Part shown: positions 34,283-42,045 of the stretch, piece by piece | Position numbering within the stretch: position 1 is the stretch's first letter | How the letters are laid out: each line of letters opens with the position of its first letter | Origin: Siccirubricoccus phaeus | GTDB lineage: Bacteria > Pseudomonadota > Alphaproteobacteria > Acetobacterales > Acetobacteraceae | DNA: 64,000 nt | Direction of reading: 5' to 3' | Assembly: GCF_008360935.1 (NCBI RefSeq) | Contig: NZ_SRXO01000006.1 | Location: forward strand, 186,001-250,000 | Notes under the pieces: model-generated | What the model saw: only the letters and a program-made list of their open reading frames with translations | Databases searched by the model: none | Told to the model about the DNA's origin: nothing | Made by a program: the position numbers and the translations under genes

Positions 34283-34367
34283 GCGGGCGTGGTGGAACTG
34301 GCAGACACGCTGGATTTAGGTTCCAGTGGCGCAAGCCGTGGGGGTTCAAATCCCTCCGCCCGCACCA
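34283..34367 (+). tRNA. tRNA-Leu (UAG)
   Basis: 85 bases including encoded CCA. The acceptor GCGGGCG pairs with CGCCCGC, and the T arm GGGGGTTCAAATCCCTC is intact. The anticodon stem CTGGA/TCCAG encloses TTTAGGT with anticodon TAG. A long variable arm (TGGCGCAAGCCG) marks a class II tRNA. Confidence 0.95.
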
Positions 34368-34405: not shown

Positions 34406-36244
34406 ATGCAGGTGACCGAGGTCGCGAACGAAGGACTCAAGCGGGGCTTCAAGGTGGTGGTGCCCGCGGGGGACATCGCGGCCCAGCGCGACAAACGCCT
34501 GGCCGAGCTCGGCCGCGACCTGCGCCTGCCCGGCTTCCGCCCCGGCAAGGTGCCGCCGAAGGTGGTGCAGCAGCGCTACGGCCAGGCGGTGCTGAGCGAG
34601 GTGCTGGAGCAGTCGGTGAGCAAGGCCACCGACCAGATCGTGACCGATCGCGGCCTGCGCCCGGCGCTGCAGCCGAAGATCGAGCTGGTGAATTTCGCCC
34701 CGGATGCCGACCTGGAATTCCAGGTGGATCTGGAGCTGATGCCGGAGATCCCGCTGCCGGATTTCGCCGCCATCAGCCTGGAGCGGCTGAAGGCCGCGCC
34801 GGACGAGGCGGAGGTGGAGAAGACGCTGGAGCAGATCGCCAGCCGCAACCGCAGCCTGGAAGAGGTGGCGGAGAGCCGCCCGGCGGTGCAGGGCGACATC
34901 CTGGTCTGCGATTTCGTCGGGCGGCTGGCGCCGGAGCCGGCGAACCGGCTGCGCAACCCGGGCGGCGCCGCCGCCCCGGGCGCGGCGGAAGGCGCGCTGC
35001 CGGAGCATTGGGTGCCGCAGATGAAGGCCAGGCTGGAGGTGGTCGGGCGCGGCGAGGGCAGCATCGATATCCGCCTGCATGGCGAGGAAGCGCTGAGCAA
35101 TCAGGTGCTGAATTTCGACGCGCTGCGGGAGATTCCGGCCCAGCCGGGCAGCACCTGGCAGGCCTCGGCGCGGATCACCCTGGTGGGCGGCAGCACGGAG
35201 GGGCTGCGGAGCCTCGCGCTCCGCATCCGTGGCGGCAAGGCCGATGGCGGCTCGCTCGACATCGTCGGCGGCGAGAATCTGGTGGCGGCGCTGGCCGGGG
35301 GCGGGACCGCCTCTGCCCGGGTGGAGGCGACGCTGCAGCGGGAGGAGACGGCTGCGGTGAGCACCGGCTTGGTCCTGGCCAGCACCGGGCCCTTCGACCT
35401 CACGCTCCGCATCGCCGAGGCGAAGCTGGCGGAGCCGGGCAGCGCGACCGGGGAGGGCGAGGCCTTCCCCGGCGGCAGCGCCACCGACGCGCCGATCGAG
35501 GTGGCCGGCCCCGGCTTCATCCCGGGCTTCAGCGAGCAGCTCGAAGGGCTAGCGCCGGGCGAGACGCGGACCATCGCCGTGACCTTCCCGGCCGAATACG
35601 GCTCCCGCAATCTGGCCGGCAAGGCGGCCACCTTCGAGGTGACGGCCAAGGGGCTGAAGAAGGCGGTGCTGCCGGCGATCGACGACGCCTTCGCCGCCAC
35701 CCTCGGCTTCGAGAGCCTGGAGAAGCTGAAGGAGGCGATCCGCGGCCAGCTCCAGGGCGAGTTCGACAGCCTCTCCCGCATGAAGGTGAAGCGGGCGCTG
35801 CTGGACGGGCTCGCGGCCCAGGCCAGCTTCCCGGTGCCGGAGGGCATGGTGGAGCAGGAATTCGCCCAGATCTGGCAGCGGATCGAGGCCGATCTGAAGG
35901 CCGGCCGGGCGGATGAGGAGGATAAGGGCAAGGATGAGGCGGCGCTGAAGGCCGAGTATCGTGGCATCGCGGAGCGCCGCATCCGCCTCGGCCTGCTGCT
36001 GTCCGAGATCGGCCGGACCAACAACATTACCGTGACGAATGAGGAATTGTCCCGCGCCATGCGCCAGGAAGCGGCGCGCTATCCGGGGCAGGAGCAGCAG
36101 GTGATGGAGTTCTTCCGCAAGAACCCGCAGGCGGCGGAGAACCTTCGCGCCCCCATCTTCGAGGAGAAGGTGGTGGATTTCATGCTGGAATTGGCCCAGG
36201 TGACGGATCGCACCGTGCCGCCGGCGGCGCTGACCGCCGCCTGA
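34406..36244 (+). CDS. tig: trigger factor with a large jelly-roll-like insertion in its PPIase domain
   Basis: 612 residues, against about 430-450 normally. Residues 1-110 are the ribosome-binding domain with the signature GFRPGKVP near 47-54. The PPIase domain begins at about 155 ([11 protein letters not shown]169), breaks off at about 174, and resumes at 352 with [21 protein letters not shown] and [21 protein letters not shown]. The C-terminal chaperone domain (375-612) is complete. The 175-residue insert reads NRLRNPGG (180), LPEHW (W202), [29 protein letters not shown] (W251) and [12 protein letters not shown] (F330), the pattern of phage-tail/CBM-type jelly rolls. The frame is intact throughout and codon use is host-like. 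The ATG at 34406 lies after tRNA-Leu. Confidence 0.93.
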
Positions 36245-41826: not shown

Positions 41827-41898
41827 GGGCGCTTAGCTCAGCGGTAGAGCGCTTCGTTTACACCGAAGATGCCGGGGGTTCGAATCCCTCAGCGCCCA
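41827..41898 (+). tRNA. tRNA-Val (UAC)
   Basis: The acceptor GGGCGCT pairs with AGCGCCC. The D arm GCTCAGCGGTAGAGC and T arm GGGGGTTCGAATCCCTC are intact. The anticodon stem CTTCG/CGAAG encloses TTTACAC with anticodon TAC. CCA is not encoded (ATTCC follows). Confidence 0.95.

Positions 41899-41968: not shown

Positions 41969-42045
<77 letters not shown>

Follow-up and report, generated by a model that had tools for sequence, protein, structure and literature searches.

A predicted beta-sandwich related to phage tail proteins, inserted in the FKBP domain of trigger factor in Siccirubricoccus phaeus and other Acetobacteraceae

The trigger factor (TF) of Siccirubricoccus phaeus carries a real and unexpected addition, a domain of 177 residues that interrupts a beta-hairpin of the FKBP prolyl-isomerase domain and is homologous to tail proteins of phages. 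TF is a highly conserved and very general ribosome-bound chaperone of bacteria, whose three-domain plan is usually taken as fixed. The insertion, its homology, its predicted fold, its patchy recurrence in the family and the constraint on its fold are all computational results. A domain common to viral structural proteins thus sits in the core machinery of the cell, and its gain or loss is visible at one site. The domain was most likely acquired once, and we propose, tentatively, that it may serve as an additional arm for client proteins.

The analysis started from a stretch of 64,000 nucleotides of contig NZ_SRXO01000006.1 (assembly GCF_008360935.1), referred to as the window. The tig frame has no internal stop and its translation gives 612 residues, so that the intact frame reported in the initial annotation was confirmed, and an NCBIfam scan assigned the product to tig with an E-value of 2.5e-118. 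Pfam recognised the N and C domains, and FKBP_C was matched at residues 348-413 only, i.e. in the later part of that domain. GFRPGK in the N domain, which we take to be the ribosome-binding signature (GFRxGK), is retained, and the IPGF motif together with one tyrosine and one phenylalanine, conserved residues of the FKBP catalytic site, aligns with the counterparts in E. coli TF (1w26). By every sequence feature tested, the window protein is a trigger factor, and the part outside the insert appears intact; the genome to which the window belongs gave a single TF match. A tRNA-Leu lies just upstream of tig (34283-34367), and the reading frames that follow were recognised by eye as what are presumably clpP, clpX and lon. 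A tig gene beside clpP, clpX and lon is in its usual housekeeping position. Farther along the window, tRNA-Val (41827-41898) and tRNA-Asp (41969-42045) are encoded. The features are compiled in Table 1.

Table 1. Features of the tig gene and its product in the window, together with one second TF from another genome, whose positions are those of its own locus.
Feature	Residues	Position	Strand	Basis
tig, trigger factor with inserted domain	1-612	34406-36244	+	ORF, Pfam, NCBIfam
Trigger_N, ribosome-binding N domain	1-144	34406-34837	+	Pfam, E 3.7e-37
GFRPGK	43-48	34532-34549	+	Translation; aligned to E. coli GFRKGK
FKBP domain, first part, to DFVGRL	about 150-174	34853-34927	+	Model strands 150-153 and 164-174
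Insert, phage-tail-type beta-sandwich (predicted)	175-351	34928-35458	+	Alignment, viral profile, AlphaFold2, Foldseek
FKBP domain, remainder, from EAFPGG, including the flap	352-436	35459-35713	+	FKBP_C match 348-413; model strands
IPGF, aligned to E. coli residues 195-198, retained	372-375	35519-35530	+	Alignment to 1w26
Trigger_C, C domain	437-595	35714-36190	+	Pfam, E 6.5e-39
Second TF of L150		5650-7620		

The insert is flanked by DFVGRL and EAFPGG, which agrees with the interruption of the prolyl-isomerase domain between DFVG and EAFPGG that had been noted initially, and related TFs without it have 2-11 residues at this site in the alignment. In the comparison with E. coli TF (1w26), the matched stretches join at residue 170, which lies in the hairpin bounded by DFTG and EEFEGG. 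The flap that forms the FKBP active-site loop had been described as separated by the insert, which turned out to be wrong: the flap, which we take to be a region of 17 residues downstream of the insert, is uninterrupted, and it is an earlier beta-hairpin of the FKBP domain that is split. In E. coli TF, proline substitutions at Arg193, Met194 and Ile195 are reported to lower the foldase activity significantly (PMC6166725). The codon use of the insert, initially called host-like, is so in GC3 (0.927 as opposed to 0.929 in the flanks) but not in its mean synonymous codon fit, which at -1.100 lies below the range of -1.027 to -0.720 of 114 segments of equal length, these segments having been cut from lon, clpX and the tig flanks, i.e. 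from the reference itself, which favours them.

Of 397 Acetobacteraceae genomes sampled, at least 28, from 8 of 102 genera, encode a full-length canonical TF with the insert, always at this single site; 372 of the genomes gave any TF match, and 28 is a minimum. The spread over eight genera bears out the earlier statement that the insertion is not very recent. Both other genomes sampled from the genus of the window carry an insert at this position, 79% and 58% identical to that of the window, and in four genera every listed member carries it (g1, 3 of 3; g29, 3 of 3; g126, 13 of 13; g6, 1 of 1). In a collection of named organisms, of which the best 80 loci were read, 17 had a long TF reading frame, and three loci (L081, L085 and L127) were matched over the insert without having a usable frame. 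Named isolates with the insert are Neoroseomonas marina, N. alba, N. eburnea, N. lacus and N. soli, Roseomonas aerilata DSM 19363, Roseomonas sp. E05 and Roseomonas sp. HF4. Relatives without the domain have either 2 residues or a loop of 4-11 residues at the site, and clades with long forms also contain loop forms. A profile search, with at most nine candidates scored per genome, found the domain in any protein in 77 of the 397 family genomes, while a class-wide sample searched with the same limit of nine candidates had it in 2 of 385 genomes, one of them that of the window. In this sample, the domain is rare outside the Acetobacteraceae.

The structure of the insert was predicted with AlphaFold2. 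Modelled alone with 55 aligned TF and viral domains, it consists of strands nearly throughout (pLDDT 90, pTM 0.84), and it is again rich in strands in the model of the full-length TF, which was based on 37 rows (pLDDT 86.8, pTM 0.57). The full model has weaker linkers at residues 181-190 and 341-350 (block pLDDT 54 and 60, respectively), and because of its low pTM it leaves the orientation of the insert open. Foldseek gave 97 matches in the PDB at E up to 0.001, and the 50 that were listed include many carbohydrate-binding modules (CBM16, CBM22 and CBM4; E about 1e-6 to 1e-4) as well as phage tailspikes, with an identity of 10-16% and a query TM of about 0.4-0.6. The search of predicted viral proteins gave 327 matches at E up to 0.001, and several of the 50 listed are named tail proteins. 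The insert is therefore a confident prediction of a beta-sandwich, nearest to CBM4/16/22 modules and phage tail proteins. The jelly-roll of phage-tail or carbohydrate-binding type named in the initial annotation is thus supported by AlphaFold2, Foldseek and the sequence homology to tail proteins described below; both checks set beforehand came out in its favour, with a jelly-roll-like fold predicted and related TFs having no alignable sequence at the site.

At the sequence level, the window insert had no match in Pfam (up to E 1), PHROGs or NCBIfam, and an assignment to a known family was therefore rejected. Across 28 inserts, the family scans gave weak matches of single members only (best E 0.0015), a profile search of PDB sequences yielded nothing meaningful (best E 0.47), and the window insert searched directly in a phage collection had no match up to E 1, while the related insert L046 reached Azospirillum phage Cd at E 0.01 only. 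The firm phage link of the window insert thus runs via prophage-type copies and viral contigs and not via the direct search. Prophage-type proteins of related genomes share the domain, and one of them, L062, has 44% identity to gp49 of Azospirillum phage Cd, an annotated tail protein (E 4e-27). When the phage copy served as query, relatives were encoded by 236 of the 249 pattern matches in viral contigs. Of these, the best 80 were kept, and with 11 more obtained via L062 they formed a set of 91 viral domains, from 75 of which, with no TF among them, a profile was built. This profile recovers the window TF (E 1.8e-12) and, counting near-copies and one second-type TF, 45 of the 46 TF rows that bear the insert, with that of L045 missed. 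It matched none of 1000 shuffled inserts, none of the 291 other reading frames of the window and none of the 89 other TF rows, of which 5 are failed ORF calls. When eight host proteins other than TF were scanned, five matched tail or baseplate PHROGs, one matched only a family of unknown function and two matched nothing. In a genome of the same genus (L066, 895-2025), a protein matching the baseplate wedge family PHROG 203 carries the domain fused to its end.

The origin of the TF-borne domains was addressed with a domain tree of 122 rows, consisting of 25 canonical TFs, 8 divergent second TFs, 52 prophage-type and 37 viral copies, with near-copies and some viral rows omitted, in which the TF-borne rows need two label changes. 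The free tree placed the TF rows L004 and L033 with prophage copies with 96% support; a tree with all 33 TF rows together is better than the free tree by 64.6 lnL and had been missed by the quick search. The two sets also differ at conserved positions of the profile: glutamate at column 157 is present in 88 of 89 phage rows as opposed to 2 of 31 TF rows, glutamine at column 155 in 82 of 89 as opposed to 0 of 32, where 20 TF rows and none of the 89 phage rows have arginine, and an aromatic residue at column 69 in 75 of 89 as opposed to 0 of 33. Since the TF-borne domains group together and share the loss of phage-type residues, a single domestication is favoured, with the caveat that TF and phage rows are unlike in their letter composition, which can help TF rows to group. 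This suggests one domestication followed by allele exchange and loss. Repeated independent captures from phages are not favoured as the main history, as the TF-borne domains group together.

The history of the tig genes was followed separately in their flanks. A total of 135 TF loci were aligned and 24 dropped before tree construction, 7 of them as fragments or failed ORFs and the other 17 as near-copies or as close relatives. In the resulting flank tree of 111 rows, computed without the insert, the long state requires 11 changes, at least 7 of which are forced by strongly supported branches, and 10 changes are needed when one second-type TF is removed (110 rows). Constraining the 29 long rows of the latter tree to one clade costs 849 lnL (p-AU 4.8e-19), and a single clade of long tig genes was thus rejected. 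R. aerilata, with the long form, and Roseomonas sp. KE2513, with a loop of 11 residues, are sisters in the flank tree (branches of 0.005 and 0.007), and in most segments on either side of the insert their DNA has 90-100% identity. In the pair L034 and L035 (genus g17), the flanks are 96% and the inserts 35% identical, with abrupt borders of DNA identity. Other pairs are graded, such as that of the window, with 79% identity in the insert and 94% in the flanks, as expected from fast divergence without exchange. The loops of KE2513, R. nepalensis and SXEYE001 resemble each other, which would fit an exchange between two alleles better than separate deletions. We infer that a long allele and an allele with a loop of 2-11 residues have been kept, lost and exchanged among tig genes. 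The frequent absence of the domain in close relatives indicates that it is dispensable.

While the insert diverges fast, its fold is under constraint in most of the pairs tested. For the insert, 10 of 14 pairs have a dN/dS of 0.07-0.40 and the other 4 one of 0.7-0.96, values that are rough near saturation. The ratio amounts to 0.27 in the window pair, with 0.15 in the flanks, and to 0.074 in the pair L046/L050, with 0.049 in the flanks. In addition, inserts were evolved in simulations without constraint to the observed identity, in 200 runs per directed pair, and scored with the viral profile. None of the 200 simulations retained the score of the partner in 11 of 12 directed pairs, and unconstrained drift is rejected for most pairs; from L034 to L045, 2 of 200 reached it, the profile score of L045 being 2.1. 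The tig insert of L045 (2023-2487) looks decayed, with almost no match to the viral profile though its frame is open. The constraint would also fit a domain that must stay folded and is otherwise useless, and by itself it does not show a function.

According to the mechanism proposed here, a phage-tail-type beta-sandwich would have entered the FKBP hairpin of TF in an ancestral member of the Roseomonas group of the Acetobacteraceae, most likely once, after which the long and the loop allele would have been kept, lost and exchanged between tig genes, and the domain would have lost its phage-type residues and diverged quickly while retaining its fold. As the best explanation for its presence, held with slightly less than even confidence, the domain may act as an extra arm on flexible linkers that docks or shields clients near the prolyl-isomerase part. 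TF encounters nascent chains, and the linkers that carry the domain are weakly predicted. Docking is proposed by analogy with SlyD, whose chaperone domain interrupts a different loop of the FKBP fold. The main rival, a possible reading to which we give a lower probability, is a tolerated passenger that happened to land in a permissive hairpin, remains folded since a misfolded segment would do harm in so abundant a chaperone, and disappears through deletion or replacement with a short allele. The loop alleles in the same clades as long ones, the near-identical flanks of R. aerilata and KE2513, the four pairs with high dN/dS and the decayed insert of L045 are consistent with such a passenger, whereas the presence in every listed member of four genera, the insert dN/dS of L046/L050 near that of its flanks and the clearly highest conservation of the domain in two of the six second-TF pairs described below argue against it. 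The natural pair R. aerilata DSM 19363 and Roseomonas sp. KE2513, with near-identical backgrounds, makes the effect of the added arm on client choice directly testable.

Improbable, in our assessment, is a role in the interaction with phages, in which the domain would bind or poison the tail proteins of infecting phages during their synthesis and an arms race would produce a fast-changing surface. Such a role would agree with the relatedness of the domain to tail proteins from phages and from prophage-type loci within the same family, and with its fast divergence at a retained fold; however, the residues conserved in phages have been lost, and a non-TF copy was counted by eye in 6 of 28 genomes with long tig (7 with one weak, unconfirmed match), which gives no clear link at nine or fewer candidates scored per genome. 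Still less probable is a ligand sensor that binds a sugar or another small ligand and couples TF activity to it. The top Foldseek matches are carbohydrate-binding modules, and tryptophan at profile column 8 is found in 25 TF rows, but the former are similar at the level of fold only, and TF is cytoplasmic. Furthermore, of six columns that are mostly aromatic in phages, columns 8 and 31 stay so in TF rows (share 0.93 and 0.79), while the share drops at columns 64 (0.52), 50 (0.42), and 69 and 161 (0), and the loss of near-invariant phage residues in the TF copies weakens a carbohydrate-binding reading. An artefact of assembly or ORF calling, already discounted in the initial annotation, is ruled out by the recurrence of the same insertion in at least 28 of 397 genomes, among them those of the same genus, and in named isolates, with nothing found in its favour.

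Divergent second TFs with the domain at the corresponding place were examined in nine genomes (L150, L151, L152, L153, L293, L297, L304, L309 and L311), and a tenth genome (G176) gave a second-TF match. A Pfam scan of eight of them at E up to 0.01 recognised Trigger_N and/or Trigger_C, with the matches of L297 and L311 falling short of the curated cut-off, and gave no FKBP_C match in any; the ribosome signature was recognisable by eye in two of the eight (L150 and L152). In a comparison of six pairs of second TFs, conservation is clearly highest in the domain in two (61% as opposed to 45 and 44%, and 53% as opposed to 36 and 48%) and not clearly so in the other four. These proteins may not inform on the role of the domain in the housekeeping TF. 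Genes with RTX repeats and a Hint domain adjoin second TFs in two genomes (L318, 10708-12951; L320, 6244-9171), their products being possible dedicated clients. Sulfotransferase-like genes adjoin second TFs at three loci, two of which belong to one genus (L323, 7902-8747; L151, 7484-8329; L317, 11685-12482), with weak Pfam matches, one below the cut-off. A neighbouring gene common to all second-TF loci was searched for and not found. An extended scenario, which we consider unlikely as a whole, would have the domain domesticated once as a fast-evolving arm for client recognition, become an exchangeable cassette at one codon position and seed second TFs that gave up the prolyl isomerase and mostly the ribosome signature, kept the arm and serve dedicated clients, perhaps the secreted RTX proteins beside two of them.

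A literature search of titles and the beginnings of abstracts, with few subscription journals covered, brought up no description of a domain of this kind in a TF. Compared with E. coli TF (1w26), the window TF has the same three domains, ribosome signature, IPGF motif and flap region, and adds the domain of 177 residues, which is placed in the hairpin directly following the position of E. coli residue 170. The beta-sandwich of tail proteins, e.g. Azospirillum phage Cd gp49 and proteins with PHROG 5939 matches, belongs to the same sequence family as the insert. In these copies, the domain is located inside a longer structural protein and has near-invariant glutamine, glutamate and aromatic residues, which are missing in most TF copies; at the glutamate, glutamine and aromatic sites, the window TF has alanine, lysine and arginine, respectively. 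CBM4, CBM16 and CBM22 have the predicted fold in common with the insert according to Foldseek, at the low identity given above, and the window insert has no Pfam or NCBIfam match. Plastid Tig2, reported to be a truncated TF (PMC11731035), also has an altered domain make-up, but there domains were lost and not gained. A parallel to a docking arm would be SlyD, whose inserted domain is unrelated to that of the window TF and which has no ribosome-binding domain. In SlyD the insert lies in the flap, whereas in the window TF it lies in an earlier hairpin and leaves the flap uninterrupted. The extra chaperone domain of SlyD is reported to be inserted in a loop of the FKBP prolyl isomerase by long linkers, and grafting such chaperone domains into FKBP12 to have greatly raised its folding activity (PMC11013033). 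If docking holds, the window TF would work like a two-domain foldase of the SlyD type without being one.
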